Numbered from the stretch's first letter, positions 1-14,142 are shown. The stretch: DNA of 64,000 nucleotides from Armatimonadota bacterium (GCA_026003175.1 BPGT01000003.1:1-64000); one strand, 5' to 3'. Notes: a model not told the origin generated them from the letters alone. Translations and numbers: made by a program.

Positions 1-110
1 TGGCGAACTTGCGCACGCACCCGCTGACTGAGAACCGTATCTTGCGGGCGAAGAAGTTGATTGCGCAGTTGCCTGACAGACAATCTCCCGCGGCGGCGCC
101 GGGGCAATGA
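1..110 (+). CDS. C-terminal end of an M48-like metallopeptidase (partial)
   Basis: An open frame enters from the left edge and stops at TGA 108-110. The visible end contains LRTHPLTENRILRAKKLI, which resembles the THPxTExRI segment near the C-terminus of exported M48 (BepA/YfgC-like) metalloproteases, followed by a short Ala/Pro tail. The zinc motif lies outside the window, so the family call rests on this segment alone. The stop overlaps the ATG of the next gene (ATGA), so the two are probably translationally coupled. Confidence 0.5.
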   Translation, partial: ANLRTHPLTENRILRAKKLIAQLPDRQSPAAAPGQ

Positions 111-788
111 GGGTCACTGCTATTATCCCTGCCTATAACGAGGAGACTCGCCTGCCCCGTGTGTTAGAGGCGGTGCGCGCGGCGTCGCTGGTGGATGATA
201 TCGTGGTGGTCAGCGACGGCTCTCTGGACGGTACCTACGAAGTGGCTCGGCGATTCGATGGCGTGCGCGCGTTGCAACTTCCTCAGAATCTCGGCAAGGG
301 CGCAGCGATGCACGCAGGCGCGTGCCATACCGAGTCGCCGGTGATTGTGTTTCTGGATGCTGACCTGATTGGGCTAACTCCTGAGCATGTAGATAGCCTT
401 GTGGAACCGGTGCGCTGTGGTGATGCGGATATGACGCTTGGGGTGTTTCGTGGAGGCAGGCGCGCTACCGACCTTGCGCAGAAGCTGTTTCCCTTTGTGA
501 GCGGGCAAAGGGCTATCCGGCGGGAGCTGTTTCTAGAGGTTCCCAACGTACAGTTCGCCCGCTTTGGGGTGGAGACGCAAATCACGCGCTGGGCGGTACG
601 TCAGCGATGGCGAGTGCAATATGTACCTCTTTATGGGGTGACCCATCCGATGAAGGAGGAGAAGCTGGGGGCGGTTACGCGGCACGGTAGCTCGCCTGCG
701 CATGTATGCGGACATCGCCCGCATCCTGCTGGACGGACGCGCCCCCGCTCGGGCGACCAAACGGCTGTTTCGGATAAGGGATAAGTAG
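107..788 (+). CDS. Family 2 glycosyltransferase with an apparent frameshift near its 3' end
   Basis: GT-A fold transferase that would move a sugar from a nucleotide- or polyprenyl-linked donor. Visible features are PAYNEE near residue 9, the VVSDGSLDGT loop, a GKGAAMHAG stretch and the metal-binding DADL near residue 85, as in dolichyl-phosphate-mannose-synthase-like enzymes. From about base 666 the annotated frame becomes Arg/Pro/Gly-rich nonsense and stops at 784. The +1 frame instead gives TVARLRMYADIARILLDGR and a Lys/Arg-rich end, stopping at 788, which looks like the true C-terminus. The break coincides with a run of five G at about 667-671. It could be a real mutation or a one-base assembly error. 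Acceptor unknown. Confidence 0.75.
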
Positions 789-885
789 ATGGCTCCGTCT
801 GCTTGAGAGAAGTCCTCGACGGGAAGCGGCGGTGTGAGCAGTCTTTCTCAAGATGGCGGGTTGGTGACGTGGGCGCAAACTGGAG

Positions 886-908
886 GGCACAGGCGGGAAG
901 CCTGTGCC
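886..908. repeat. Short REP-like hairpin (ACAGGC/GCCTGT type)
   Basis: GGCACAGGC, a five-base GGGAA loop and GCCTGTGCC form a perfect 9-bp stem in the gap between two convergent genes. A related ACAGGC-N4-GCCTGT hairpin follows the stop of the gene ending at 36168. No T-tract follows, so it looks like a dispersed palindrome rather than an intrinsic terminator. Confidence 0.5.
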
Positions 909-930
909 TGCGTTCAGGGATACATGGTTG

Positions 931-1870
931 TTAGTTACTCCGTCCTCGCAGTCTACCCACCACCGGCAGCAGTCCTAACGCCACCAGTGTCATAGTTCCG
1001 GGTTCGGGGATTGCTGACGGCGTACCGATATGCTGGTTAATCCAGTTGACGTAGCTGGACACGCGCATGGAGCCAAGAAGGTCGCCGTATTTCGCGTTGG
1101 GTATCCCATCCCCGAGAGGCGAACCAATGTCCGCAAGGAAGGAGTGAACCCCTGCCAGATACCATTGGCTGCCATCCTGTACGAATACAGCGCCGCCGCT
1201 GTCTCCAGGCGCTCCCATTCCTTCCAACGGAAGGGGGGTAGCATTGCTGAACGGATAGAGGGAGTTCTTGCTCTCGTCAGGGCTATCGAAGTCGCTCAGC
1301 AAGATAGTGCCTGATAGGTTGACGGAAAAGCTTGTATCGAGGATGAGATCGATCTGGTTCTGCATGGCTCGCTTCGTGCCGTAGGGGTATGCACTACTGT
1401 CAAAGCCTGTGACGCCGTCGCCTCCGTAACCGAAGCCCACGGAGTAGCCTACTTTGGCGACTTCCGAGGTTCCTGTGTAAAGCAGAGCTGGCGCTACTCC
1501 GGGCACAATGGTGTTTAGCATTACGAGAGCGATGTCGTGAATAGGGGTGTTGGGGATATAGCCCGGGGTGGATGAACCAATTTAGCGCACTGTAGGTGGA
1601 TGAGCCGATGACAAACTGCACCGACGAAGCACCGTTAACCACGTGCGCTGCGGTCAACACCCACTGTCCGTTGCCGATTAAAGTACCCGAGCCAGCTCCT
1701 ACGCCAGCCGAGTATACTTTACCAACAGGGGCAAACTGCGGTTGGTTCGCCAGTGTTAGGTAAGCGGATCCTCCTACATCATCACGCCAGACGATAGCTG
1801 AAGCTCGGGGCGTCCATAGCAGAAACAGCAGCAAACTCAGCGGCAAGAGTTTCATCTTTGCGCCTCGCAT
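931..1870 (-). pseudogene. Trypsin-like serine protease with PEP-CTERM anchor, split by a frameshift
   Basis: Two overlapping minus-strand frames (1870-1400 and 1521-931) together make one S1-type protease of about 310 residues. The first carries a signal peptide (LLPLSLLLFLLWTPRASA) and the catalytic His in VLTAAHVVNG. The second carries the catalytic Ser in GDSGGAVF and ends in a PEP-CTERM tag: IPEPGT, a hydrophobic stretch and a basic RLRGR tail. Removing one G from the CCCGGGG run at about 1562-1568 restores YIPNTPIHDIALVML, which supplies the catalytic Asp. Start 1870 has AGGAGGTGT nine bases upstream. If intact it would be exported, sorted by an exosortase and retained at the surface. 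The break is either a real inactivation or a one-base sequence error. Confidence 0.8.
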
Positions 1871-2065
1871 GCGGCTTTACACCTCCTAAACATGTGTATC
1901 GGTCAAATGGTAGACCATTATAGATAGCTATGTCAATGAACATGTATACGTATTATTGCTGTTTTTCTATGTTGCTCTGAGCAAAAACAGGTTTTATCCG
2001 TAGGGGGCGAAACATATCCCGCCATTTTGGAATCGGCGGAAGCCTCGCCTGCTAATCAGAAAATG

Positions 2066-2094
2066 TTGACAAATGTCTACTTTTCTGCTGTACA
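2066..2094 (+). promoter_or_regulatory. Possible promoter of the phage-head operon
   Basis: A perfect -35 box TTGACA (2066-2071) lies 17 bp before TGTACA (2089-2094), a weak -10. A GACA-AA-TGTC palindrome overlaps the -35 box and could be an operator. The first gene begins at 2116 behind AAGGAGGTGA. Confidence 0.35.
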
Positions 2095-2115
2095 GGGTGG
2101 AAGGAGGTGATTCGA

Positions 2116-2889
2116 GTGGAAGTGGAGCGTGAGGCGAAGCTGTTCGAGGCGGGTTCCTACCCCGACAAGGGGTTAGAGGTCAGCGAAGAGCAGTTGCAGG
2201 CGCTGGTGGATCACTTCACTACTCCTGTTCCACTGATGCTGGAGCACCTGTCGCACGGGTGGCAGATTGGGCAATTGAAAAGGCTGTGGCGGCGGGGTAA
2301 GGAGCTGTTTGGAAGGCTAGCACTGTTGCCGGAGGCGGAGGCGTTGTTGAAACGGTTGGGCATTCGGGGTATCAGCGTGGCGGTGACGCCCGACGTGGGG
2401 CGCATTGTGGAGGTATCGGTGACGGCGACGCCGCGCGTGGCGGATGCGCGCCTGCTGAGTGTGGGCGCGGTGGCTTTTTCGGGCGAGATACTTTTGACGG
2501 AGGTGAGTGCATTGGAACAGGACATGGAAGCGTTGCGCCAGCGGGCAGAAGCAGCGGAGTTCGCCCTGCGCGAACGACAGGTGGAGGAGACTGTGCAGAG
2601 GTGGCTTCGGCAGGGGAAGCTGACGCCTGCAGTGCGCGAGATGGCGAAGACGTTGCTCTTGCAGGGCACGCAGGTAGTGACTTTCGCTGGGAGCAACGCG
2701 AGCGTAGCGGAGGTGTTTGCTCGTTTTGTGGAAGCGTTGCCGTCGATGGTGCGTTTTGGCGAGACCGCGCCTGCCGGTGAACAGGAGCATACCCTGAGTG
2801 CGGAGGAAGAGGCGTTCCTGCGCAAGCACTGGGGCGACCTATCCCCTGAGCAAATTGCCCGTTATCTGTCGGAAGGAAGGAGGCGATAG
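2116..2889 (+). CDS. Mu gpI-like phage head protease/scaffold protein
   Basis: 257 residues, first gene of the head operon. The N-terminal half reads like the Mu I protein/prohead protease family: PVPLMLEHLSHGWQIGQLK, an assessed distance-like segment (LFGRLALLPEAEALLK) and RGISVAVTPDVG, then an Ala/Glu-rich helical half from about residue 135 that fits a scaffold. In such phages the protease trims scaffold and capsid during prohead maturation. GTG 2116 is preferred over GTG 2107 because the perfect AAGGAGGTGA ribosome site at 2101-2110 would overlap the earlier start. The position immediately before a decoration protein and a gpT-like capsid supports the call. Catalytic residues cannot be assigned by eye. 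Confidence 0.65.
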   Translation: MEVEREAKLFEAGSYPDKGLEVSEEQLQALVDHFTTPVPLMLEHLSHGWQIGQLKRLWRRGKELFGRLALLPEAEALLKRLGIRGISVAVTPDVGRIVEVSVTATPRVADARLLSVGAVAFSGEILLTEVSALEQDMEALRQRAEAAEFALRERQVEETVQRWLRQGKLTPAVREMAKTLLLQGTQVVTFAGSNASVAEVFARFVEALPSMVRFGETAPAGEQEHTLSAEEEAFLRKHWGDLSPEQIARYLSEGRRR

Positions 2890-2892
2890 GAG

Positions 2893-3306
2893 ATGGCAGC
2901 GTTGACGAGCGCTTACGATCCACAAGACAAACCGGGCGAGCTGGTGAGCTACAAGGTGGGCGCGAACGTGGTGATTTACAAGGGTGCGCTGGTGAGCGTG
3001 CGCAGCGACGGTTACGCTTATCCGGCACGCAGCGGCACGAGCAGTGACGTGTTCGTAGGGGTAGCGTTTGAGGGAGTGGACAACACAGGCGGTGCAGCGG
3101 GCGCGAAGTCGGTGCGTGTTCGGAAGAGCGGCACCTATGTCTACAACGGCAGCGGCTTCACACAGGCGAGCGTGGGGCAAGCGATGTACGCAGCGGACGA
3201 CAACACGCTGACCACTACTTCTACCAACAACCAGCTGGTGGGCTACGTGGTGGAGGTGCTGTCGGCGACACAGGCGCGGGTTCGGATTGACAACGCAGTG
3301 CGATAG
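2893..3306 (+). CDS. DUF2190-like capsid decoration protein
   Basis: 137 residues, nearly all beta strand and small polar residues, with Val/Gly/Ser-rich repeats such as VVIYKGALVSV and VGVAFEGVDNTGGAAG. This is typical of the DUF2190 (RecA/RadA-like recombinase-labelled) family of capsid cement proteins, which sit between protease and capsid genes in Mu-type and lambda-type heads. It starts four bases after the previous stop behind GGAAGGAGGCGATAGGAG and ends just before the capsid gene, so the three are one translational unit. Confidence 0.7.
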   Translation: MAALTSAYDPQDKPGELVSYKVGANVVIYKGALVSVRSDGYAYPARSGTSSDVFVGVAFEGVDNTGGAAGAKSVRVRKSGTYVYNGSGFTQASVGQAMYAADDNTLTTTSTNNQLVGYVVEVLSATQARVRIDNAVR

Positions 3307-3317
3307 GAGGTGGAGTG

Positions 3318-4244
3318 ATGCCAGCGATTACGCGAAGCGAGATGGGCTACCTGCTGGAGGCGGGTTTGCGCGCGGACTTCTTTGAGGCGTATCGGCGGCA
3401 GGCAGAGTCGGCGATTTACCCGCAGATTGCGACGGTGATTCAGACCGAGCTACCTGCGCAGAAGTATGGGTGGCTGGGCAGTGTACCCACGATGCGCGAA
3501 TTTGTGGATGAACGGATGCCAAAGGGCTTGCGGGCTTATCGCTACACCATTCAGGACACGGTGTGGGAGAGCACCATAGCGGTGGAGCGACGCGCTCTGG
3601 AGGACGAGCAGATTGGAGCCATTCGGCTCAGAGTGCAGGATTTAGGGCGTGAGGCGGCGCGGCACAAGGACTACCTGGTGGTGAAAGCATTGCTGGACGG
3701 GTTCACTCAGGCGTGCTATGATGGGCAGCCGCTTTTCTCCAGTGCCCATTCGGAGGGCGAAAGCGGCACGCAAAATAACACGACGACTCAGCCGTTGAAC
3801 CCCGATAGCTTGCAGAACGCCATTTCCACCATGATGCTGTTCAAGGACGACCAGGGCGTGCCTCTGGGCATTCTGCCAGATACGTTGCTGGTAGGACCTA
3901 GCCTGCGCTGGACGGCGATGGAGCTGCTGGAGTCGCAGGTGGTGGTGGTCAAAGCGGGCACTGGCGACAATACGCCGTATCGCAATGTGCTACAAGGTGC
4001 GCTGAGGCTGGTAGTCAGTCCGTATATCACGGGCAATCAATGGTTTGTGCTGGATACCAGTCGGGCGGTGCGTGCGGTGATCCTGCAGGAACGGTCGGAC
4101 GTGCCAGTAGAGTTCTCGGCATTAGAGGACCCATCGGTGAGCGAGAGCGTGTTCCTGCGAGACGTGGTGTATTACGGCGCGCGAGCGCGCTACGGCGTGG
4201 GCTACGGTTTGTGGCAAACCGCTTACGGCAGTAACGCGAACTAA
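3318..4244 (+). CDS. Mu gpT-like major capsid protein
   Basis: 308 residues. It matches the gpT family pattern: a helical N-terminal arm (MGYLLEAGLRADFFEAYR), a YGWLGSVPTMREFVDE segment, a KGLRAYRYTIQDTVWE stretch preceding the central domain, the conserved HSEGESGTQNN loop after LFSS, and the C-terminal FLRDVVYYGARARYGVGYG. gpT-type capsids assume the HK97 fold and form icosahedral heads. Start 3318 is chosen because AGGAGG at 3305-3310 gives a seven-base spacer; GTG 3315 is less likely. The ending is intact, so the protein looks full length and under selection. Confidence 0.85.
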   Translation: MPAITRSEMGYLLEAGLRADFFEAYRRQAESAIYPQIATVIQTELPAQKYGWLGSVPTMREFVDERMPKGLRAYRYTIQDTVWESTIAVERRALEDEQIGAIRLRVQDLGREAARHKDYLVVKALLDGFTQACYDGQPLFSSAHSEGESGTQNNTTTQPLNPDSLQNAISTMMLFKDDQGVPLGILPDTLLVGPSLRWTAMELLESQVVVVKAGTGDNTPYRNVLQGALRLVVSPYITGNQWFVLDTSRAVRAVILQERSDVPVEFSALEDPSVSESVFLRDVVYYGARARYGVGYGLWQTAYGSNAN

Positions 4245-4292
4245 CCCCCTCACTCCCTGCCCCCCTCCCCACCGCGGTGGGAGGGGGCTATC
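4245..4292. repeat. GC-rich hairpin repeat between capsid and next gene
   Basis: CCCCCTCCC and GGGAGGGGG flank a CACCGCGGTG palindrome, forming a long, nearly perfect stem immediately after the capsid stop. The left arm is preceded by CCCCCTCACTCCCTG. It resembles the hairpin at 8873-8915 and the two hairpins inside the 186-bp MITEs. No T-tract follows; it could lower downstream expression relative to the capsid. Confidence 0.6.
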
Positions 4293-4311
4293 CATGATAA
4301 GGAGGCACACG

Positions 4312-4557
4312 ATGGACATTGGCGTGCAGGTTTTGACGCTGATTGGCGCGATGGTTTCGGCGCAGTGGGCATTTGCGCGACTGACGCTGCGCGCGCTGGA
4401 GCGCATCATTCAGGCACAGGAGCAGACGCTTCGGGAGCATCTGGTGCGACTGGAGCAGGCGGTGCGGGGCAACACCGAGGCGCTTCAGGCGCTCAAAGAG
4501 GCTCTTGCAGGTGTCAGGCTGAACGGCTCACGACGAGTGACGAACAGAAAGGAGTGA
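4312..4557 (+). CDS. Small protein with hydrophobic N-terminus and coiled coil
   Basis: 81 residues. An uncharged N-terminal segment (VQVLTLIGAMVSAQWAFA) is followed by a long amphipathic helix rich in Leu, Glu and Gln (residues about 20-65), and a basic tail. ATG 4312 has AAGGAGG at 4299-4305. Its place after the capsid gene would suit a holin-like or membrane-tethered phage protein, but the order of hydrophobic segment first and coiled coil second is not diagnostic. No family recognised. Confidence 0.6.
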   Translation: MDIGVQVLTLIGAMVSAQWAFARLTLRALERIIQAQEQTLREHLVRLEQAVRGNTEALQALKEALAGVRLNGSRRVTNRKE

Positions 4558-4563
4558 GGGAAG

Positions 4564-5622
4564 TTGCGTTTCACAGATACCATGGGGCGATGGCAGGCGG
4601 TACGAAGTGATATCCCCTTGCCCGTAGCGGGCGGACAGGTGCTTCAATGGCTGACCGATGACTTCAACGCCACGCTAGGGCAGTGGGATGTCGTTTCTGG
4701 CAGTCCACTAATCTCCAACAGCGAGCTGTATATCAATAGCGGTATCGTGTTACTCAGCAAGAAGTCGTTCCAGCCCCCGTGTCTGCTGGAAGTGGTGGAG
4801 ACGATGACTGCCCGTGCGTCTTCGGATAACTTCCGGTTCGGCTTCTATACCGATGACAGCAACCTGGTGGAGTATGGCGCAACCGGCACGAGTAGCAGCA
4901 ACATGGATATGCGCCTGAGTGCTGGTGGGGTGGCGAACGACCAGACTGCCGTGAACGTGAACGCAGTGAATAACAGCTACCGGTTGGCGACCATCTATGT
5001 GGGGCTGGGCGAAGTGGTCTGGGCGTATCGTGCAGTCAACAGCCTGACCACTCGCAACGAAGTGTATCGTTACATTGAGCATGGTATCCCCGACGGTCCG
5101 TTCCGCGTGCGTCTGGCGGGTTTAGCGGGCACGAGCACGTTGAAGGTACACCGCGTGACGGCGTATCAGCTGGCGGACATCATACCGCCCGGCGCGTTAG
5201 GACATCATGTGGACGCAATGGCTATCCCCGTTCGGTTGACGAACACACCGTTTGTGGGCACGCCGAGCAGTAGCAACCTGGGCAGTATCCAGAGCACAAC
5301 GGACACCTTCAGCGCGCTCGCAGCGGGTTCGGTCGGCACGGGAACAAGCAGGCAATACTACAACGAGCAGTGTCATATCCAGGCGCACTTTCAGGGTGAC
5401 CAGCCGTTCAGCGCGTGGCTGGAGTGCCAGATTGATGGCACGAACTGGCAGGTTATCTGGTATGGCACGAGTATCGATGCGACGGCGGATGCGGTGCTTC
5501 GGTACTATGCGCAGTCGCCCATCCTGCAGGTATACGGCAGCCGAAGTTTCCGGGTGAAGGTGAAGAACACGGGTGCGGCAGCGGGCACGTTCCGCGGCAC
5601 GATTGTCGCGACGCAGCTGTGA
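4564..5622 (+). CDS. Putative beta-sandwich structural protein of the head operon
   Basis: 352 residues from TTG 4564, seven bases after the previous gene. It is rich in Ser, Thr, Asn and aromatic residues with alternating strands. The first two thirds resemble a LamG/concanavalin-like sandwich (DDFNATLGQWDVVSG and the following strands). The last third (SAWLECQIDGTNWQVIWYG) resembles a small jelly-roll seen in phage appendage and glycan-binding modules. No Cys-rich or enzyme motif. The best guess is a surface fibre or decoration protein exposed on the particle. The family is not recognised; the phage-structural role is inferred from position and composition. Confidence 0.55.
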   Translation: MRFTDTMGRWQAVRSDIPLPVAGGQVLQWLTDDFNATLGQWDVVSGSPLISNSELYINSGIVLLSKKSFQPPCLLEVVETMTARASSDNFRFGFYTDDSNLVEYGATGTSSSNMDMRLSAGGVANDQTAVNVNAVNNSYRLATIYVGLGEVVWAYRAVNSLTTRNEVYRYIEHGIPDGPFRVRLAGLAGTSTLKVHRVTAYQLADIIPPGALGHHVDAMAIPVRLTNTPFVGTPSSSNLGSIQSTTDTFSALAAGSVGTGTSRQYYNEQCHIQAHFQGDQPFSAWLECQIDGTNWQVIWYGTSIDATADAVLRYYAQSPILQVYGSRSFRVKVKNTGAAAGTFRGTIVATQL

Positions 5623-5634
5623 TGGAGGCGTGCG

Positions 5635-5808
5635 ATGAAGAAGCTACTGAAGCCGTTCATCATCCGGTGGTTAGACGAGCGGGCGTTGCGGTTACCGTCA
5701 TCGGTTCGGCAGAAGCTGGCGGACAGGTTGAAGGTGGATGTGGCGGTCGTATTCGCCATTGAAGAAGCGGTTCGGGAGCACATTCTGCAACAGGTGGAGG
5801 AGTGGTGA
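5635..5808 (+). CDS. Small basic helical protein of the head operon
   Basis: 57 residues, start ATG 5635 and stop TGA 5806-5808, lying exactly between two operon genes with GATGGAGG upstream. It begins MKKLLKPFIIRWLDERALRL and continues as a predicted helix ending in an acidic segment (IEEAVREHILQQVEEW). The spacing (12 bases from the previous stop, two bases to the next start) and absence of any other reading frame support it being real. Function unknown. Confidence 0.6.
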   Translation: MKKLLKPFIIRWLDERALRLPSSVRQKLADRLKVDVAVVFAIEEAVREHILQQVEEW

Positions 5809-5810
5809 GC

Positions 5811-6014
5811 ATGCGTGCATACGTGAAGGCAACAGGTACGGCTATCACGCTGGTCAACATCGACACGGGTGAGAAGTTCAGTATCAATCCGACGGCTATC
5901 CAGAAGCTGTTCGGTGAAGAGTTGAAGGAAGGCGAGGTCTGGGAGTTCCGCTGCAGCAGGCTGGATGAGATTGCTGAGACCTTCCGCAAGTGGCAGGTCA
6001 TCTCGCAGGCGTAA
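5811..6014 (+). CDS. Small conserved-looking protein of the head operon
   Basis: 67 residues from ATG 5811, with GGAGG at 5796-5800. The sequence is a compact alpha/beta mix (MRAYVKATGTAITLVNIDTG, then EVWEFRCSRLDEIAETFRKW) with no signal peptide or membrane segment. It sits where adaptor or completion proteins lie in other head modules, but no family is recognised. Confidence 0.55.
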   Translation: MRAYVKATGTAITLVNIDTGEKFSINPTAIQKLFGEELKEGEVWEFRCSRLDEIAETFRKWQVISQA

Positions 6015-6027
6015 TGGAGAGAGGCAG

Positions 6028-6447
6028 ATGGCGGTCGTGGTCACACGAGAGGCGGTGAAGCGCACCGCGGCGATATCGTCCACCGCTTACGATGGTCAGA
6101 TCGATGCGCTGATTACCGACCTGGTTCCGGTGATAGAGTACACGCTGTCGTCGGACGCGCTGGCGGATAGCACACTGGAGCCGGTGCTCAGTCGGGGTGC
6201 GACGGAGATTATCGCGGGCGAGTTTCTGGCGCAGAGGTTGCGTGAAGAAGGGGCAACGGAGGCGTTCGAGGCGGGTGGTGTACGGGTGGGCGAAAGCCCT
6301 CAGTCACATGCCGATTTGGGTGACCCGTACGGGTTGATTCAGCGCGGGTGGGCGAGGCTCATGCCTTTCTTGAAGCCGGTGTATACGCAATCCACCACGC
6401 GCAATCGGCAGCGACAGGTTTCTGAGCAGACGATGTCTGGCTGGTAG
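6028..6447 (+). CDS. Head-tail connector-like adaptor protein
   Basis: 139 residues from ATG 6028. The N-terminal part, VTREAVKRTAAISSTAYDGQ followed by IDALITDLVPVIEYTL, is the usual opening of gp6-like (HK97) or gp36-like (Mu DUF1320) adaptor proteins, which form the ring beneath the portal. The rest is helical with a SRGATEIIAGEFLAQRL segment. It partly overlaps no other frame once the later start is used, and it is followed directly by another neck-type candidate. The fold class is likely; the precise family is uncertain. Confidence 0.55.
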   Translation: MAVVVTREAVKRTAAISSTAYDGQIDALITDLVPVIEYTLSSDALADSTLEPVLSRGATEIIAGEFLAQRLREEGATEAFEAGGVRVGESPQSHADLGDPYGLIQRGWARLMPFLKPVYTQSTTRNRQRQVSEQTMSGW

Positions 6448-6450
6448 GTG

Positions 6451-6765
6451 ATGAAGATGTCGGCGCGAGTGGAACGATTGAAGTCACTGGTGAAACGACA
6501 CGGCGAGGAGGTGGTGGTAAACGGCACGCGCACGGTGCGCATGGTGGTGTTTGTGGCAACGAGTGGACTGTTGCGCAGTCTGTTTACCGACAGCGACCTG
6601 CTGGGTTTCAGTCGTCCGATGTGGGCTGGGGTGGTGGCGGCAGATGAGACGCTGAACGAGGGCGACAGCATCTTCCGCGACGGAGTAAGCCACACGGTGC
6701 GGCGGGTGGTCACGCTGAAGGTAGGCAACGCCCCCGCGGTGAAGGTGGCGGTGTGGAGCCAGTGA
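6451..6765 (+). CDS. Putative head-closure/neck protein
   Basis: 104 residues from ATG 6451 (GTG 6448 is an alternative). After a basic helix (VERLKSLVKRHGEEVVVNG) it is all beta, ending DSIFRDGVSHTVRRVVTLKV. Size, order after an adaptor and the strand-rich second half match SPP1 gp16-like or Mu gp37-region stopper proteins. No tail gene follows, so what it would connect to is unclear. Its stop overlaps the start of the next small frame. Confidence 0.45.
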   Translation: MKMSARVERLKSLVKRHGEEVVVNGTRTVRMVVFVATSGLLRSLFTDSDLLGFSRPMWAGVVAADETLNEGDSIFRDGVSHTVRRVVTLKVGNAPAVKVAVWSQ

Positions 6766-6914
6766 CCACCCGCCAGCGCAACCTGTTAACAAGAAAGCAA
6801 GGTTTTGGGACCCTAACAAGCAAGATTGGGTGTACTATGACAGGGAAGAGGATGGCGTTCCTAGCAATGCTGGCGGGCTTGTTTTATCGGCAACAACCTG
6901 TGGTGGGAGGGTAG
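6762..6914 (+). CDS. Possible 50-residue peptide with a short hydrophobic segment
   Basis: A frame starting GTG 6762 overlaps the previous stop as GTGA and runs to TAG 6912-6914, three bases before the portal start. It ends MAFLAMLAGLFYRQQPVVGG, with a hydrophobic stretch too short for a classical membrane span. ATG 6837 is an alternative start giving 25 residues. The coupling geometry is the main support. Function unknown. Confidence 0.35.
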   Translation: MTTRQRNLLTRKQGFGTLTSKIGCTMTGKRMAFLAMLAGLFYRQQPVVGG

Positions 6915-6917
6915 CGT

Positions 6918-8012
6918 ATGGTGTTTTCGCCATTATGGCGTCGCGTGAGGCGGCGTGGGCTGGACAGGGAACAGGCGGTGGTGGACCCCATCGCCGCCTT
7001 GCGTTTTGGTGGTGCAGCGGATGCGGATGACCTGATGCGCACACGTGGGGAACGGGTGTATGAGGAAATGCTTACCGACGCGCAGGTGCAGGCGGCGTTG
7101 ACCACCAAGAAGTTTGGTGTGCTGGACGCGGAGTGGCAAGTCTTGCCGGGCGGTGAGGACGAGCCATCGCAACGGGCGGCGGATTTAGTGCGCTTTGCGC
7201 TGGGGCAGCTGCGCGGTTCGGTGATGCGTATCCTGTTGAACGCGCTGGATGCCTTAGCTCATGGCTACTCGGTGCAGGAGATAAACTATACGCTGTGCGA
7301 GCAGGAGTCGTGGCGGGGCGCAGTGATATGGCAGAGCATCAAGAGCAAGCCGCCGCGCCTGTTTCGGCTGGAGACAGACGAGTTTCGCAACCTGAAGGCG
7401 CTGTACCTGCGTGTGCCGGGCGGCGATGAGAAGCCGTTGCCCGCCGAGAAGTTCGTGGTGTACTCGTACAACAGCAGTTACGAATCACCCACCGGACGTA
7501 GTGACCTGCGTGCGGCGTACAAGCACTGGTGGGCGAAGGGGTTGTTGCTGAAGTTTTGGCTGTTGTCGCTGGAGAAGTTCGGTGCGCCGACGGTGAAGGG
7601 GGTGGTACCCCGCCACGTGCCCGAAGCGGAGCGGCGCGAGCTGCTGGAGGTATTGGACCGCATCCAGCAGGAGACAGCGGTGGTGCTGCCAGAGGATGTG
7701 CAGATCGAGATGTTGGAGGGCAAGTCGCCCGTGGGCGCAGCATATCTGCAGGCGGTACAGTTCCACAACAGGGAGATCGCGCGTGCGATATTGGGGCAGA
7801 CACTAGCGACCGACGAGGGGATGCGCACGGGGTCACTGGCGCTGGGCAAGGTACACTACCGCGTGATGCAGCTCTATTTCCGCGTCCTGCGCCGCGACCT
7901 TGCGGAGCAGGTGATGGAGGAGCAGTTGTTCCGTCGGCTGGTAGCGCTGAACTTCGCCGATGCGAAGACGCCGCGATTCGTGTGGGTGGAAAGGGACGTG
8001 GAGGGAGAGTAG
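6918..8012 (+). CDS. DUF935 (Mu gp29-like) portal protein
   Basis: 364 residues. It has the DUF935 signature layout: ERVYEEMLTDAQVQAALTTK near residue 40, a VLDAEWQVLPGG strand, HGYSVQEINYT, then PLPAEKFVVYSYNSSYESPT, GRSDLRAAYKHWWAK and an acidic C-terminal half with QFHNREIARAILGQTLATDE. Portals form the dodecameric ring through which DNA enters and leaves the head. The protein is somewhat shorter than Mu gp29 (about 510 residues), mainly at the C-terminus. It is the last gene of the operon; in most phages portal precedes protease and capsid. It appears intact. Confidence 0.8.
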   Translation: MVFSPLWRRVRRRGLDREQAVVDPIAALRFGGAADADDLMRTRGERVYEEMLTDAQVQAALTTKKFGVLDAEWQVLPGGEDEPSQRAADLVRFALGQLRGSVMRILLNALDALAHGYSVQEINYTLCEQESWRGAVIWQSIKSKPPRLFRLETDEFRNLKALYLRVPGGDEKPLPAEKFVVYSYNSSYESPTGRSDLRAAYKHWWAKGLLLKFWLLSLEKFGAPTVKGVVPRHVPEAERRELLEVLDRIQQETAVVLPEDVQIEMLEGKSPVGAAYLQAVQFHNREIARAILGQTLATDEGMRTGSLALGKVHYRVMQLYFRVLRRDLAEQVMEEQLFRRLVALNFADAKTPRFVWVERDVEGE

Positions 8013-8110
8013 TTCCACCCTATAGACTTCAGAATGACACGATTTTTGCCTTACTTTCCCCCGTTGCTTTGCCGTTTTTCGCCCAATCCCAGCAAAGTGC
8101 GCAATGGATA

Positions 8111-8125
8111 TGGCACTCCTCTTGC
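8111..8125 (+). promoter_or_regulatory. Sigma-54 (RpoN)-type promoter upstream of a PEP-CTERM gene
   Basis: TGGCAC (8111-8116), five bases, then TTGC (8122-8125) reproduces the -24/-12 spacing of the RpoN consensus TGGCACG-N4-TTGC. Transcription would begin near 8137, giving a leader of about 30 bases before the ATG at 8169 and its AAGGAGG at 8154-8160. Sigma-54 control by the PrsK/PrsR pair is known for PEP-CTERM genes in other bacteria. Confidence 0.6.
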
Positions 8126-8168
8126 CCTATATACAGGGTGCGAATGCTTTTTGAAGGAGGAGTGTCTG

Positions 8169-8867
8169 ATGAAGCGATGGGTTTTGAGCCTTGCGGTTGG
8201 GTTTGTACTTACCGCCAGCGCCAGCGCAGTTACCATCAGCCTGCACAGCTACGACAACAGCTTCACCGCTGACGCCATCATCGACGGCAGCACGTACTGG
8301 GTGTATATCGGCGCAGTGCGTCTGAACGTTGGGGGATACCCGCTGCCAAAAGAGGCGTGGTGTGTGGACCTCAAGCAGGCGGTAGCAAGCGGTTCTTGGG
8401 ATGCTGTGCAAAAGAGTACCACTGCTACTGCGCTGGATGATGGACGGCGCGCGGACTGGGCGATGGGTGCGTTGTGGAAGAACCGTCCGTCTGCATCAGA
8501 TGCACGTGGTCGCGCCGCTTTGCAACTAGCCATTTGGGAGGCTCTTTATGATGGCTTCGGAGCGAACCCGTTCAGCAGCGGACGCTTTCGCGTGGCGAAC
8601 GTGTTCAATGGCACAAACCGCAGCTCTATTGACGGTCTGACCCTTACGCTGGCGCAGAGCTATCTGCAGGCATGGAACGGTCTGGGCGTTCTCAACGGTG
8701 TGCTGTACGACGCGCCTTTGCCTGGCGCAGGCAAACGCTCGCAGGATTTCATCCTGACGCCGGAGGGGGGATTTACCCCTCTATCGGTGCCTGAAGCTGG
8801 CACTCTCTCGCTGATGGTTGCTGGTCTGACTGGCGTTGCCGGTCGGCTCAGACGATACGGCAGGTAA
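8169..8867 (+). CDS. Exported PEP-CTERM domain protein
   Basis: 232 residues. A signal peptide (WVLSLAVGFVLTASASA) is followed by a soluble domain of about 180 residues without recognisable enzyme motifs, and a C-terminal PEP-CTERM sorting tag: VPEAGT, a hydrophobic segment (LSLMVAGLTGVAG) and basic RLRRYGR. Such proteins are processed by exosortase and usually become part of the extracellular matrix. The central domain (ALQLAIWEALYDGFG) resembles the Cys-poor thioester-like domains common in PEP-CTERM proteins, but this is uncertain. ATG 8169 is chosen for its AAGGAGG eight bases upstream. It follows the phage portal gene but appears to have its own promoter. Confidence 0.8.
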   Translation: MKRWVLSLAVGFVLTASASAVTISLHSYDNSFTADAIIDGSTYWVYIGAVRLNVGGYPLPKEAWCVDLKQAVASGSWDAVQKSTTATALDDGRRADWAMGALWKNRPSASDARGRAALQLAIWEALYDGFGANPFSSGRFRVANVFNGTNRSSIDGLTLTLAQSYLQAWNGLGVLNGVLYDAPLPGAGKRSQDFILTPEGGFTPLSVPEAGTLSLMVAGLTGVAGRLRRYGR

Positions 8868-8872
8868 GTTGC

Positions 8873-8915
8873 CCTCACCCCTTTCCCCTCTCCCAAGCCG
8901 TTGGGAGAGGGGAGG
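8873..8915. repeat. CCCTCACCCC-type hairpin repeat
   Basis: CCCTCACCCC is followed by CCCCTCTCCCAA and TTGGGAGAGGGG around a GCCG loop, a perfect 12-bp stem between two convergent genes. It could act as a bidirectional terminator but has no T-tract. The CCCTCACCCC flank and stem sequence match the hairpin modules inside the 186-bp MITEs read in reverse. Confidence 0.6.
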
Positions 8916-8928
8916 ACCACTGGCGATC

Positions 8929-9906
8929 CTACAGCGTACGTGAAGCCGGGTGGTATCGCTTCCACACGCGGAAGCCGATTTTGCCGTAAAAGTCCACCAG
9001 GTCTGTCCAGTCAATCGCCATGCGCTGTGCGCCCTGTAGCTTGACATACTCCACACCCTTGCAAAGCAGAGCCAGACCTAATCCCTTTCCGCGTGTGCTT
9101 TCCGCCAGACCGATAGGTCCCAATCCCCCGTACGCCTCGCCCAGCAGCTTGCGCCAGTAGATAGAGGGCCCGATGCGCTTGGAGCCACGATGGAAGGTAT
9201 GGCAGAAGCCTGCTACCTCGTTCCCGTGTGTGAGGATGAGGATGTCGCGCGGCGCTGGCTCGACCTCCAGCCGCTTTGCCGTCTCGTAGTACCACCTGCC
9301 GGGGAACTCCTTTTGCAGGAAGCGCAACAGGGCAGGTATGTCATCCGATGTGCAGGAACGGATGGTGTACTCTTCGCGCAGGTTGTGCAGGTTCTGCTCT
9401 ACCTCGGCGGGCACGCGATAGTCCGCGAGGTCGCGTACCAGGTCTACCGCGACATGCTCGCTGATGGTGAATCCCACTTCCTGCAAGAGCTGCTGATGGA
9501 GCGTTTGCTCGGCGGGAACACCGGGGAAAAAGTGGGCAGGGTCGGAGCCGTAGCTGACGCGCTTCCTACCCTGTGCCTTCAGCCAGTCCATCGCCTTGTG
9601 CAATAGCTGACGTGCCGCTTGCAACCCTTCTTCGGCAGGTAGGAAAGCCAGTGCGCCGATCCACCCCTGATCGGGCATCATGCCTGCCGAACCCAGCGGT
9701 TCTTTACACACTTTCGCGTGTGTATACGCCAGCAGGTTCCCTCCGCTGTCCTCCGCTACCCACACCGCCTCCGGGTCGAAATGAGCGTCCCGCAGCACGT
9801 TCTGTTTAAACAGAGCGGAATCCAGCGGGAACTGTTCCCCCATGCACCGGTTCCACAGTTCCAAAACCGCAGGTTCGTCTCCTGCGCGCAAAAGGCGTAT
9901 CTGCAT
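8929..9906 (-). CDS. Tandem GNAT acetyltransferase
   Basis: 325 residues containing two GNAT folds. The first (1-155) begins IRLLRAGDEPAVLELWNRCM and has a degenerate acetyl-CoA loop. The second (about 180-325) begins YTIRSCTSDDIPALLRFL and keeps the canonical loop STRGKGLGLALL with a following helix and FYGKIGFRVWKRY. Double-GNAT proteins of this layout typically use only one site. Substrate unknown. Four bases separate it from the upstream gene, so the two probably share a transcript. Confidence 0.75.
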   Translation of the reverse strand: MQIRLLRAGDEPAVLELWNRCMGEQFPLDSALFKQNVLRDAHFDPEAVWVAEDSGGNLLAYTHAKVCKEPLGSAGMMPDQGWIGALAFLPAEEGLQAARQLLHKAMDWLKAQGRKRVSYGSDPAHFFPGVPAEQTLHQQLLQEVGFTISEHVAVDLVRDLADYRVPAEVEQNLHNLREEYTIRSCTSDDIPALLRFLQKEFPGRWYYETAKRLEVEPAPRDILILTHGNEVAGFCHTFHRGSKRIGPSIYWRKLLGEAYGGLGPIGLAESTRGKGLGLALLCKGVEYVKLQGAQRMAIDWTDLVDFYGKIGFRVWKRYHPASRTL

Positions 9907-9908
9907 CT

Positions 9909-10475
9909 TCAGTGTCCCGCTCTCTGCCCGTATTTATCTATTTGCGTGCGTAGATGGGCGTCATAGCGAGCCACGATCTCGCGCGTCAGGATAATACGCC
10001 CCAATAAGTCACCCTCATCGCTATCGATTACCTGCATCACGTGCGCTGGTGCGAACAGCTTCTCGAAGGGGTCATCCTGCGGGTTGCCGTCTCCTTCGGA
10101 GATAGCCTGTCGGATGAAGGGAGCCATAGCACGGCGCACAGGAGCGTAGTGTTTTACCATCCATGCTCGCACCTGCTGGTACTGTTCGTCACAGCCATCG
10201 TGCACGGTATCACGTGCTGCCCAGCACAACACGTCTATCAGTTGTTCGTACTGTTCGTAGAAAGCAAGAAACTGCTCGCGCTGTCGCCGGTACTGCGCCA
10301 ATGGGTCTGTACGTTCCAGAACCCAGTGTGCTACCAGCGACATCCCGTCCTGTACCCATGCGCTGAGCGTCTTCGCCGCGCGAACTGCCCAGAGATAACA
10401 GCGTCGGATGAGATAATAGCGTGACCACTGCGCGCGCAGCCACCGAACCTCAGCGCTTTCTTGCGAACGATGCAT
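9909..10475 (-). CDS. Conserved-type hypothetical protein, all helical
   Basis: 188 residues from ATG at 10475, chosen for GGAGG upstream in the complement (the longer frame to 10556 has no good site). It is rich in Trp, Tyr, Arg and Gln with predicted long helices (YRRQREQFLAFYEQYEQLID) and an Asp-rich C-terminal part (VIDSDEGDLLGRIILTREIV). No signal peptide. I do not recognise a family. It directly precedes the GNAT gene in the same direction. Confidence 0.6.
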   Translation of the reverse strand: MHRSQESAEVRWLRAQWSRYYLIRRCYLWAVRAAKTLSAWVQDGMSLVAHWVLERTDPLAQYRRQREQFLAFYEQYEQLIDVLCWAARDTVHDGCDEQYQQVRAWMVKHYAPVRRAMAPFIRQAISEGDGNPQDDPFEKLFAPAHVMQVIDSDEGDLLGRIILTREIVARYDAHLRTQIDKYGQRAGH

Positions 10476-10529
10476 GGTCGCCTCCTCTCCGTTTTTCATT
10501 GTGCAGTGTAACAAGCGGCAAACCGTCGT

Positions 10530-10554
10530 GGCTCGGCGGGAGCCTCCCCTCCAC
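10530..10554 (+). repeat. Dispersed GGCTCGGCGGGAGCC repeat
   Basis: GGCTCGGCGGGAGCCTCCCC followed by TCCAC lies between two minus-strand genes. Very similar sequence occurs at 30591-30614 (opposite orientation), at 41351-41378, and partially at 17122-17145 and 57972-57990. The core GGCTCGGCGGGAGCC is an imperfect palindrome. Confidence 0.55.
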
Positions 10555-10570
10555 ATTGGGACGGTTCCGA

Positions 10571-10897
10571 CTATTCGCTCGTTGCACTGCGCTGCACGAA
10601 ATTGAGCCTCAAATCAGTAAGCAGACGCTCCAGATCGCGGCGCTGCGAGTCCGTGATATGCGGTTTGAGCACTTCTGCGAGCGCCGCCACGCAATCGATG
10701 GCGATTTTCGCCTGCGGCAGGTCCGCGTGCAATTCCCCTGAAACAGGGTCTTTCCATAGCCCCATTTTAATCCACGCCTGAGCCTGTAGTTCCTCGATCG
10801 TCCACAGCGCAACGGTTACCACGTCCACAGGTTGTTGTTGAAATTGCTCTTCTTGCTGCGTGGTTTGTTGAGATTGAGACTGCTGTTGTTCCTCCAT
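10571..10897 (-). CDS. DUF1844 family protein
   Basis: 108 residues. After a Gln-rich N-terminal tail (MEEQQQSQSQQ) the domain shows the DUF1844 pattern: an AWIKMGLWKDPVSGEL segment, DLPQAKIAIDCVAALAEVLK, then DLERLLTDLRLNFV at the end. The family is small, cytosolic and of unknown function. ATG 10897 has AGGTGCC upstream in the complement; a longer frame to 10921 is possible. It lies downstream of and close to the GH78 gene but reads in the same direction only after a gap of 59 bases. Confidence 0.75.
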   Translation of the reverse strand: MEEQQQSQSQQTTQQEEQFQQQPVDVVTVALWTIEELQAQAWIKMGLWKDPVSGELHADLPQAKIAIDCVAALAEVLKPHITDSQRRDLERLLTDLRLNFVQRSATSE

Positions 10898-10956
10898 AAC
10901 GGCACCTCCCAGCAGTGTCACCGATTATATCACACCTTCGGCGCGGTGGCAACTGT

Positions 10957-13900
10957 TCATCTGTCTGCCTGTAGCTTAAAGTGATAGTCGCCGGAGCCAA
11001 GCTCTACCACCATCCAGTCACCCTCGTCGCGTGCGCTTTTCACACCGGGTACTCTAGACACGAACGCACCGTTTCGCCATACCCTGCCCTCCGCTTCCGT
11101 CAAGGCGGGGTTTGATATGCCCAGTTTGGGGATGTATACTGTCGCCGAGCTGTTAGCAGGCACGATAACGCTGAGCAGGAAGGCATCAGCGCGCTTTTCC
11201 CAGCGTACTGCAACCCTGCCGCGAACAGTGTCTACGGACGCTTGAACCCAGTGCAGGTCGCCTATGGGGTGTGGGCGCACGGTGAAATGTTCCCAGTCGC
11301 CCCGCGAGGCATCAGGCTGCGTACCTGCTAGAGCCTCATAGAACCACCCGCTGACCAGTCCGAAGGCGGGATGATTATGCGAGTTCATGCCAGGTCCGAC
11401 CTCGTACTTCCACAGCTCCCAGATTGTGGTTGCTCCCATACGCACCATATAGCCCCAGCTGGGGTAGGTATCCTGCGAGGCGACCAGATAGGCGATATCG
11501 GCGCGTCCGTACATGGTGAGCGTGTCCAGCAGGTAGCGTGTACCGATGAAGCCCGTGCTGAGGTGTCCTTTGTGGTTCACGGTGATGTCGCGCACCACGT
11601 TGTCCAGTACCTTTTGCTGATGCTCTTTGGGCACGATACCCAGGTAGAGCGGAAAGATGTTGGAAAACTGGCTGCCGTTGCCGTACTGAGCGCTTTGTGC
11701 GTTCCAGAAGCGTTTATTAAAGGCTTCGGCGATGCGTTCGCAAAGTTCACGGTATTGCCTCTCATCGGCGCGTTTGCCCAGCACGCGTGCGATGTCCGCC
11801 AGCACCTTCACGCTCAGGTAGTACGTGCCGGTGGAGATAAGGTCTTTAGGCGTCTCCACCACTGCCACCCAGTCGCCGTAGTTGTTGCGGGTGAGGATGC
11901 AGCTCTCCCCCGCCTCACGGCGTAGCATCTCCACGTAGCGCTTCATGCCTTCGTAATGCTCTTCCAGCAGGTGCTTTGCACCTGTGTGGCGGTACATGTC
12001 CCATGCGATAAAGAGATATGCGCCTGCCCACTGCGGGTCGCCCGGGTTGGTTCCCCATACGTGGGGCACGGTGTCGGGGATACGTCCATCCTCGCCCTGT
12101 GCGTCGGCGATGTCGCGCAGGAACTTCACGTAGGCGGACTCGGCGGTGAAGTTGTACAAGCCCATGTTGGCGGTCATCTGGGCGTCGCCCATCCAGCCCT
12201 GTCGCTCATCGCGCTGGGGGCAGTCGGTGGGGATGCTATGCCAGTTGGTACGATAACCCCACTGCGCGTTGCGTTGAATCTGGTTGAGCAGCTCGTTCGA
12301 GCTCTCAAATTGTCCTCGTTGCACGAAGGAGGTGTGTACCACCCTTCCTTCGATATCCTCCGGCTTCAGGGTGCCTGGGTAGCCTTCCACCTGCACATAG
12401 CGAAAACCATGGTAGGTGAAGCGCGGCTCGTACACCTCTACTCCTTCGCCTTTGAGGATGTAGGTGTCGGTGGCTTTAGCAGAGCGCAGGTTCTGCTGGT
12501 TCACCAATCCGTTTTCGAACAGTACTTCGGCGTGTTTGAGAGTGACCACAGTTCCCGCATTGCCCTTCACCTTCAGGCGACACCAGCCGGAGAAGTTCTG
12601 CCCGAAGTCTACCACAAACACGCCAGGGCGCGGCTCTGAAATCCATCTGGGTTTGAGGGTTTGTGTGACCTTGATGGGCGGCATCATCTGTGCCGAGAGC
12701 GTCACGCCCGGCAGCTCGCTCGTCAGCACCGGTTGCCACTCTCCCCGCTTTGAGGCAAAGCCGGGTTCACACCAGCCGGGTTGTTCCAGGCGGGCGTCAT
12801 ATCTCTCGCCATGATACAGGCTGTTGTCCAGAATGGGGCTTTTTGCCCAGCGCCACTCGCCGTCGGTGGTAACAATCTGCTCCCTGCCGTCGGTGTATTC
12901 GATATGCATCTGCAACAGCAGGTGTGGCTTGCCCTTCCACCAGCCGTTACCCAACAGTGCGCCCACGCAGTTATCGCCCCGGCGGAGCAGGTGGGTTATG
13001 TCGTAGGTGCTGTAATAGATGCGCTTGTGGAAATTCGTGTAGGGCGGGTCTAGCACACGGTCGCCCACTTTCTGCCCGTTGAGGCAGAGTTCGTAGTAGC
13101 CCAGACCAGTGACGTAAGCGCGGGCACGTTTGACCCTGCCTTCCACACGGAACTCCCGCCTCAGCATGGGGGCATAGGTATCGGAGGGACGCGATTCGCG
13201 CACGCCATCGGTGAGCATCGCCCGGCTCCAGTCGTTCTCCTCGATGCTGTCCATGTTCCAGCCGTCGGTGGTTACCGTGGCGTAAAGGGCGAGGTTTTCC
13301 CCTGCTTCATTCAGCACCTCTAGCTCCGCCAACGCTGCCAGCGGGCGCGTGTCGGCGGGATGGTGTAGTTTTGTCATGACCAGTCGCACATAGCGCGCCT
13401 TCTGGTTTCCTACGTCGATAGGGAACGGTTTTGTGCCCGGATTAGGCACATCGGCTTGCGTGTAGTCGGCAAGGACGCGCGGATGGGTGAAGTCTGGGTC
13501 ATCGCTGGCTTCGACACGGAAGCGTACCGGAAAGCCGAAGCCGGGCTCATCACGCACCCAGTTATGCGGGCGGGCGGGGTAAAGCACTACCCGCCGGAAC
13601 TCCACTGACCGGCGCAGGTCTAACTGCACCCATTTGGTCACATTCATGCTATCCGCAAACTGTGAGTGCCAGCCGTTTCCACCTCCTCGCGGCACGGCAA
13701 TCCAGTTCGCCTGCCACTCGCTTGGGTGTAGCAGAGCGGTTTCGAAGGTGGCAGGTTGGCTGTACGCGCTCGTGACGCCGTGATGGTCCCATATCCGCAC
13801 GCGCCAGTAGTAGGTAGTTCGGCTTTGCAACGGTTTTCCCTCATAGCGGACGTGCAGGCTTTGCGAGGAAGTCACCTTGCCGCTATCCCACAGATCAGCC

Positions 13901-14142
13901 TTGCCGTCGCGAAGCAGTTCGGGTTTGCTGGCAACCTGAATCTGGTATGCGCTCTGGCTGGCATCGCGCTCCTGGTGTTGCATCTGCCATGAAAAGTGTG
14001 GCTGAGGGGTGTCTATCCCCAGCGGGTTTTCCAGCCACTCGGTGAGCAGATGCGAGACACTAAGGCGGCGCTTCGACTCGCTCGGTAGCGCAAACACCAA
14101 CAAAAGCACAAGAACAAATAGCCAGTCCGTTCGCAACTTCAC
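10957..14142 (-). CDS. GH78 alpha-L-rhamnosidase, exported
   Basis: 1061 residues. It hydrolyses terminal alpha-L-rhamnose from plant or microbial polysaccharides and glycosides. Layout: signal peptide (WLFVLVLLLVFALPSES); Fn3-like N-domain (residues about 25-130); an inserted F5/8-type C-like sandwich (about 150-290, with WVQLDLRRSVEFRRVVLY); the GH78 N-terminal and beta domains (RVLDPPYTNFHKRIYYSTYD); the (alpha/alpha)6 catalytic domain with TDCPQRDERQGWMGDAQ holding the general acid region, and TTIWELWKYEVGPGMNSHNH near the second carboxylate; and a C-terminal beta domain. Start GTG 14142 is chosen for AAGGAGG upstream; an open frame continues to 14316 but lacks a site. Standalone; no rhamnose catabolic genes nearby. 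Confidence 0.88.
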   Translation of the reverse strand: MKLRTDWLFVLVLLLVFALPSESKRRLSVSHLLTEWLENPLGIDTPQPHFSWQMQHQERDASQSAYQIQVASKPELLRDGKADLWDSGKVTSSQSLHVRYEGKPLQSRTTYYWRVRIWDHHGVTSAYSQPATFETALLHPSEWQANWIAVPRGGGNGWHSQFADSMNVTKWVQLDLRRSVEFRRVVLYPARPHNWVRDEPGFGFPVRFRVEASDDPDFTHPRVLADYTQADVPNPGTKPFPIDVGNQKARYVRLVMTKLHHPADTRPLAALAELEVLNEAGENLALYATVTTDGWNMDSIEENDWSRAMLTDGVRESRPSDTYAPMLRREFRVEGRVKRARAYVTGLGYYELCLNGQKVGDRVLDPPYTNFHKRIYYSTYDITHLLRRGDNCVGALLGNGWWKGKPHLLLQMHIEYTDGREQIVTTDGEWRWAKSPILDNSLYHGERYDARLEQPGWCEPGFASKRGEWQPVLTSELPGVTLSAQMMPPIKVTQTLKPRWISEPRPGVFVVDFGQNFSGWCRLKVKGNAGTVVTLKHAEVLFENGLVNQQNLRSAKATDTYILKGEGVEVYEPRFTYHGFRYVQVEGYPGTLKPEDIEGRVVHTSFVQRGQFESSNELLNQIQRNAQWGYRTNWHSIPTDCPQRDERQGWMGDAQMTANMGLYNFTAESAYVKFLRDIADAQGEDGRIPDTVPHVWGTNPGDPQWAGAYLFIAWDMYRHTGAKHLLEEHYEGMKRYVEMLRREAGESCILTRNNYGDWVAVVETPKDLISTGTYYLSVKVLADIARVLGKRADERQYRELCERIAEAFNKRFWNAQSAQYGNGSQFSNIFPLYLGIVPKEHQQKVLDNVVRDITVNHKGHLSTGFIGTRYLLDTLTMYGRADIAYLVASQDTYPSWGYMVRMGATTIWELWKYEVGPGMNSHNHPAFGLVSGWFYEALAGTQPDASRGDWEHFTVRPHPIGDLHWVQASVDTVRGRVAVRWEKRADAFLLSVIVPANSSATVYIPKLGISNPALTEAEGRVWRNGAFVSRVPGVKSARDEGDWMVVELGSGDYHFKLQADR

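Follow-up and report, generated by a model that had tools for sequence, protein, structure and literature searches.

A dispersed set of phage-type head and terminase genes in Armatimonadota: a candidate gene-transfer-agent-like element

Main finding

The block of phage head genes described here is probably one part of a dispersed, domesticated and host-controlled gene set for a DNA-packaging capsid, a candidate element of the gene transfer agent (GTA) kind. It lies near the start of the window, by which we mean the whole stretch analysed, bases 1-64000 of contig C3 in a 4.1-Mb, seven-contig Armatimonadota genome. That the block might encode a domesticated particle, GTA-like or used for cargo, had been proposed in the initial annotation, and on genomic comparison the GTA-like form of this idea is now strongly favoured by vertical inheritance, purifying selection, dispersal over several loci, a large terminase (TerL) gene elsewhere in the genome and a promoter-like element shared between loci. 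If real, a GTA-like set would be new for the phylum Armatimonadota, for which our literature search found no GTA.

The head block and its flanks

Between 2116 and 8012 on the plus strand, ORF reading and profile searches gave intact, open genes from a protease/scaffold through to a DUF935 portal (Table 1). All of the genes first named were present and open, with profile matches for protease, decoration, capsid and portal (PF10123, PF09956, PF10124 and PF06074, respectively), and the protease start originally read at 2116 is indeed the most likely one because a ribosome site (AAGGAGGTGA) lies at 2101-2110. The C-terminal part of the protease matches PF10123 (E = 1e-5), and phrog_976, a head maturation protease family, is matched at 5e-13. 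Its His47 and Ser90 (numbered from 2107) are invariant in 45 genomes; going by the families concerned, these residues, and the Walker and Asp residues of TerL described below, would be the catalytic ones. The portal is 80-93% identical among same-genus genomes, without stops.

Table 1. Features of the head block and its upstream element (window coordinates)
Feature	Position	Strand	Remarks
Promoter-like element GTTGACAAATGTCTACTTTTCTGCTGTACAGG	2065..2096	+	upstream of protease
Head maturation protease/scaffold	2116..2889	+	ORF open from 2107
Capsid decoration (cement) protein	2893..3306	+	PF09956; phrog_1731, 3e-28
gpT-type major capsid protein	3315..4244	+	PF10124, 1.3e-65; conserved start MPAITR at 3318
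s87, small protein	4312..4557	+	ORF open from 4294; conserved in genus
u352, beta-rich 352-aa protein between capsid and adaptor	4564..5622	+	
s57, 57-aa small ORF	5635..5808	+	also detected in HR16
s70, 67-aa small ORF	5811..6014	+	present here in most same-genus loci
ada, head-tail adaptor-like protein	6028..6447	+	
Head closure/stopper protein, 105 aa	6448..6765	+	likely start 6457
DUF935/Mu-type portal	6918..8012	+	PF06074, 1.2e-70

The genes between capsid and portal are less readily named. We infer that s87, with an apparent N-terminal hydrophobic segment, a coiled coil and a match to phrog_462 (E = 0.0014), is XhlA/holin-like at most. The u352 protein had no family match above noise in profile searches and is fast-evolving yet constrained (dN/dS 0.14-0.21); it is a possible head fibre. 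Foldseek matches of u352 to lectin- or jelly-roll-like proteins were distrusted, the fold model being poor (pLDDT 55). Homologues of ada adjoin the stopper in 42 ORFs of our 46-genome map, and a siphophage genome on contig C6 of a same-genus relative (G006; see Comparison with known systems) has a weak head-tail adaptor match (phrog_40) at the equivalent position; ada itself matched no PDB sequence. For the 105-aa protein, of which nine sequences were aligned, an AF2 model (pLDDT 92) had as Foldseek neighbours the stoppers or head-closure proteins of T1, lambda, Pam3, R4C and SPP1 (gp16), with E-values of ~0.01-0.2 that are suggestive rather than strong for a predicted phage stopper.

Host-type genes stand on either side of the block, as had been noted from the start. 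The left flank measures just 2.1 kb because the window begins at base 1 of contig C3. A public same-genus relative, HR16 (L012), carries the block at the same locus with longer flanks, and shares with the window the glycosyltransferase gene on the left and the PEP-CTERM, GNAT, 215-aa and rhamnosidase genes on the right; a contig-end artefact was rejected on this ground, and the same block at the same locus, which the initial annotation had proposed to look for, was found in other relatives as well. Terminase, tail, integrase, repressor and lysis genes were not seen among the ORFs at 1-14,000 of the window, and Mu-like prophage features (transposase A/B, repressor, tail, ends) were found neither there nor in the left 8.8 kb of HR16. 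Since those 8.8 kb, 5' of the HR16 protease, hold no head-gene homologues and their ORFs look host-type, a prophage hidden past the contig end is unlikely, and the Mu-like prophage just outside the block that would have changed the first reading did not come to light in that flank. Left of the block, a trypsin-like PEP-CTERM protein is spread over two overlapping minus-strand ORFs (931-1521 and 1400-1870, together 931-1870), which suggests a frameshift or an assembly error.

The tight coupling first described for these genes holds in the window, where 152 bp (6766-6917) separate stopper and portal, but not in relatives, where host genes for a HAF-repeat/dockerin protein, an iron-ABC ATPase and others take up 3-7 kb at this point. 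The intervening genes are missing here, and neither the HAF-repeat/dockerin nor the iron-ABC ATPase gene had a match anywhere in the window.

A terminase gene on another contig

The block had been described as isolated from packaging genes, which is right for the locus but not for the genome. A search for a large terminase elsewhere, with PF03237, gave a single match in the source genome, at ~140.3 kb on contig C6, and at least one match in every one of the genus's 10 genomes. This TerL gene (G000:C6:140230-141564) is intact, encodes 444 aa and matches PF17289 (3e-11) and phrog_2 (9e-45). It is solitary on C6, with a methyltransferase gene on one side and a sugar-transport gene on the other; the methyltransferase, an AMIN amidase and other genes adjoin TerL in relatives too. 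Walker A (CGRRWGK), Walker B (DE) and the candidate nuclease residues Asp 262, 317, 403 and 404 are at least 95% conserved across 47 genomes. Most genomes of the genus hold one TerL copy (G006 adds terminases from real prophages, and the G008 gene is in two contig-end pieces), and TerL and capsid are both kept in 10/10. No small terminase subunit (TerS) gene was seen at the C3 or the C6 locus of the source genome.

These results bear on another early suggestion, that the block is a satellite using the terminase of another element. As a mobile satellite (PICI or P4-like) relying on a helper phage for both terminase and tail, it would have head genes and no tails, as seen here, and G006 does harbour a real siphophage with homologous head genes. 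We nonetheless abandon the satellite as extremely improbable: TerL is a conserved, host-encoded chromosomal gene in all 10 genomes, no mobility genes were seen, the locus is fixed between the same host flanks in same-genus relatives, the set is dispersed over several loci, and its gene trees are congruent with host families (see below).

A promoter-like element shared by the two loci

The head block and TerL loci, unlinked as they are, share a genome-unique promoter-like element. The form GTTGACAAATGTCT...TACAGG precedes the protease in nine same-genus loci, and GTTGAC-N19/20-TACAG precedes TerL in eight; each half of the element is conserved within its own alignment. In the 4.1-Mb genome, GTTGAC-N20-TACAGG has two exact matches, C3:2065-2096 and C6:140182-140213, the former ending 19 bases before the protease start codon and the latter 16 bases before that of TerL. 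Roughly 0.5 exact matches would be expected from base composition, a comparison that is descriptive only because the pattern was picked after viewing both alignments.

The first 17 bases of the element (2065-2081) form an operator-like imperfect palindrome, which recurs before the protease in many genomes of family f16 and in one of f17, and was not found before TerL. In the source genome this palindrome (GTTGACANNTGTCTACT) has one exact match, and four at up to two mismatches against seven for a reversed control. We rejected it as a general stress or LexA-type site, the match counts showing no large regulon; the literature held nothing relevant on LexA motifs in Armatimonadetes.

Distribution and arrangement across the phylum

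Among 291 Armatimonadota genomes searched, TerL was found in 144, the capsid in 124 and a PF06074 portal in 144, although this portal model also picks up unrelated prophages. Strong matches placed TerL and capsid together in 104 genomes and neither in 153 (odds ratio 57), and all three genes in 99, figures tallied by hand from lists of strong matches with kinship among genomes ignored and with many of the assemblies being fragmented MAGs. Among the record titles for related capsid loci are HR15, HR16, Fimbriimonadales, Chthonomonas and other Armatimonadota. Searches of 50,697 phage records and of IMG/VR gave no phage close to the capsid: it is at most 37% identical to the best phage matches listed from those records, all 214 matches fall below 60%, and the nearest full-length IMG/VR match is 38% identical.

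The genes for TerL, portal, protease, decoration, capsid, adaptor and stopper recur across families, mostly in single copy and, in the 46 genomes mapped, in several arrangements. Families f31-f35 have a single cluster (TerS-TerL-portal-protease-decoration-capsid-adaptor-stopper), often interrupted by unrelated genes such as an aquaporin (PF00230) between TerL and portal. Families f15 and f16 usually have two loci, TerL with portal and protease to stopper, 16 kb to 1.03 Mb apart or on separate contigs; the two are adjacent in G127, and in G151 TerL and portal are 7.7 kb apart. TerL, portal and capsid block are mostly separate in f17, and in f1, the source genus, TerL stands alone and the portal follows host genes in relatives, the genes missing from the window. 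The loci are thus on C3 and C6 in the source genome, 150 kb apart in G006 and 1.03 Mb apart in G144; at separations of 150 kb to 1 Mb, such loci would hardly fit into one head.

The set is dispensable, since about half of f16 is without it (TerL and capsid in 42 of 85 genomes, neither in 28) and in some relatives the capsid gene (G223 and G234) or TerL (G090, G119 and G237) is split or has stops. A strong TerL match unaccompanied by capsid or portal occurs in 13 genomes. One diverged TerL (32-36% identity) is present in eight f16 genomes (G128, G130, G160, G161, G163, G164, G166 and G167) that gave no capsid or portal match, and in such genomes the rest of the set has either been lost or diverged past detection. 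Capsid homologues (42-45% identity) unaccompanied by a strong TerL match occur in five f9 genomes (G054, G055, G057, G059 and G060); these may be related prophages or a further variant of the set.

Inheritance and selection

The set has descended vertically across families and is kept intact, under purifying selection. Each of the three gene trees (TerL, capsid, portal), built by a quick method from 46 genomes, required nine label changes, the minimum for 10 family labels, against a mean of ~25.7 for shuffled labels (0/200 as low as nine); host relationships here are taxonomy family labels rather than a rebuilt phylogeny. The three genes are unlinked in many genomes. The f1 head locus and the f16 TerL-portal locus each have the same host flanks in different genomes; at the latter, genes read from sequence as peptidyl-prolyl isomerase or ribosomal protein L28 recur across genera.

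The comparison of substitution rates that the initial annotation had called for, made here by NG86 between genes of the source genome and those of same-genus relatives, pointed to purifying selection on both capsid (dN/dS 0.04-0.08) and portal (0.06-0.17). Values were 0.04-0.12 for decoration, 0.07-0.16 for protease, 0.10-0.18 for TerL, 0.08-0.17 for adaptor, 0.16-0.30 for stopper and 0.12-0.42 for s70, and 0.07-0.14 for the host GNAT, rhamnosidase and methyltransferase genes. The dN/dS of the set is similar to or lower than that of flanking host genes, with capsid and decoration its most constrained members. No stop codons were flagged in the genes compared within the genus and, with TerL and capsid retained throughout, frequent decay in close relatives, the outcome that would have spoken against domestication, was not observed.

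A decaying prophage, its head genes left over after deletion of the rest, would account for head and packaging genes remaining alone, without tail, integrase or replication genes, and for the stops in a few relatives. Such a remnant should show dN/dS near 1 and frequent frameshifts, the opposite of the core values of 0.04-0.18 and of the stop-free genes of the genus, and it fits poorly with the same locus genus-wide and the same set under ten host-family labels; we consider it very improbable.

Tail and lysis genes, and how a particle might work

The tail families that we searched had no match in the source genome. Within the genus, sheath PF04984 was absent from 10/10 genomes, and the tape-measure family phrog_973 matched the G006 siphophage and none of the other nine genomes; the tail models PF10145 and PF13550 also gave no match, nulls that carry little weight because both miss the real G006 siphophage as well. 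Past the stopper, six f31-f35 clusters (G217, G227, G228, G232, G241 and G244) showed no recognisable tail genes and ran on into small, lysis-type or host genes. Tail absence is therefore likely rather than proven, as strongly diverged tail genes could escape the models used. Sheath proteins of ~620 aa do occur in some f35 and f16 genomes (G241:C4, G244:C67, G234:C160, G144:C1:2577168 and others), where their genes stand away from the head clusters; these are perhaps contractile injection systems.

A tailed GTA with an unrecognised tail module elsewhere in the genome is a sub-case overlapping our preferred explanation. The known GTAs have tails, tail proteins evolve rapidly and two of our models missed even the genus's own siphophage, whereas the six clusters, the missing sheath and a tape-measure family that detects the siphophage but is absent from the other nine genomes all speak against it; we regard it as plausible, if short of probable. 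We entertain, tentatively, a tailless GTA: a head-plus-terminase particle, vertically inherited in much of the phylum, its split loci tied together by the shared element, that would deliver DNA tail-free.

On the GTA-like reading, the capsid, scaffold/protease, decoration and portal proteins would assemble a prohead upon induction, TerL would load host DNA into it, and the filled head would be closed by adaptor and stopper. Several f31-f35 clusters continue with small proteins, of which some look membrane-bound, and with a peptidoglycan hydrolase (Amidase_3, VanY-type or M23) that matches phage endolysin families; in these single-cluster families, the adjacent endolysin and small holin-like proteins might lyse the cell and free the particles. 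Sister cells would then receive DNA from the particles, perhaps with no conventional tail involved and with u352 as a possible head fibre.

Alternatively, the capsid may have been domesticated for another use, such as phage interference, protein or metabolite cargo, or programmed lysis. In favour of such a use, apparent tail loss leaves ordinary DNA delivery unexplained and the strongest constraint falls on capsid and decoration, but the parts for packaging and retaining DNA (the ATPase and nuclease residues of TerL, the portal, adaptor and stopper) have been kept and co-occur with the capsid, which makes this alternative rather unlikely. Apparent tail loss combined with a kept terminase, portal and stopper would pose the question of how DNA enters a recipient cell, or whether the particle has some other role. 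With few conserved genes and a clear promoter-like element, the GTA-like reading is testable in cultured relatives and, if true, an independently domesticated set spanning many host families would offer a further case in which to ask why cells retain them.

Comparison with known systems

Descriptions of GTAs cover few lineages: alphaproteobacteria, a spirochaete, a sulfate-reducing deltaproteobacterium and a methanogen (PMC9662315). According to a recent review (PMC11841831), a GTA particle is a tailed capsid filled with DNA, so that a tailless GTA would depart from the described type; our literature search returned nothing relevant on tailless GTAs. Kogay et al. 2022 (PMC9662315) define a GTA by six criteria: caudovirion-like particles built from proteins of caudoviricete descent, packaging of mostly random host DNA, an endogenised genome often spread over several loci, heads too small to take all of that genome, mainly vertical descent together with the hosts, and delivery of the packaged DNA to other cells. 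Viewed against these criteria, the set is fully endogenised over multiple loci, as in the source genome, G006 and G144, and is mostly vertically inherited, co-diversifying with its hosts in three gene trees compared with family labels; a caudoviricete ancestry applies to TerL, portal, protease, capsid, decoration and stopper, tail genes not being found. As this amounts to two criteria plus protein ancestry for a set seen as genes, we file it as GTA-like rather than as a proven GTA.

The Rhodobacter capsulatus GTA (Rhodogtaviriformidae; PMC9662315) resembles the set in consisting of endogenised phage head and packaging genes in several loci, vertically inherited and under selection. Unlike that GTA, the set has a head lineage of Mu gpT/DUF935 type, belongs to another phylum, has its core head genes themselves in distant loci with tail genes not found, and is only predicted to package and transfer DNA. 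The Brachyspira GTA (Brachygtaviriformidae), whose genome is likely dispersed over several loci (PMC9662315), comes from a spirochaete host and is likened here by its published description.

Among phages, the siphophage of G006 (L064, L185, L186) occupies a ~44-kb contig, additional to the domesticated set in that genome, and is probably a circular genome because its capsid gene spans both contig ends. It has homologous portal (31% identity), protease, decoration and capsid (about 50%) genes in the order TerL-portal-protease-decoration-capsid, followed by adaptor and closure proteins, like the set; it differs from the set in carrying tail-region genes, among them one for a tape-measure protein. 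Finally, phage Mu and Mu-like prophages differ in having the transposase, repressor and tail region that the set's locus lacks, and share with it the gpT capsid, DUF935 portal and gpI-type protease families.
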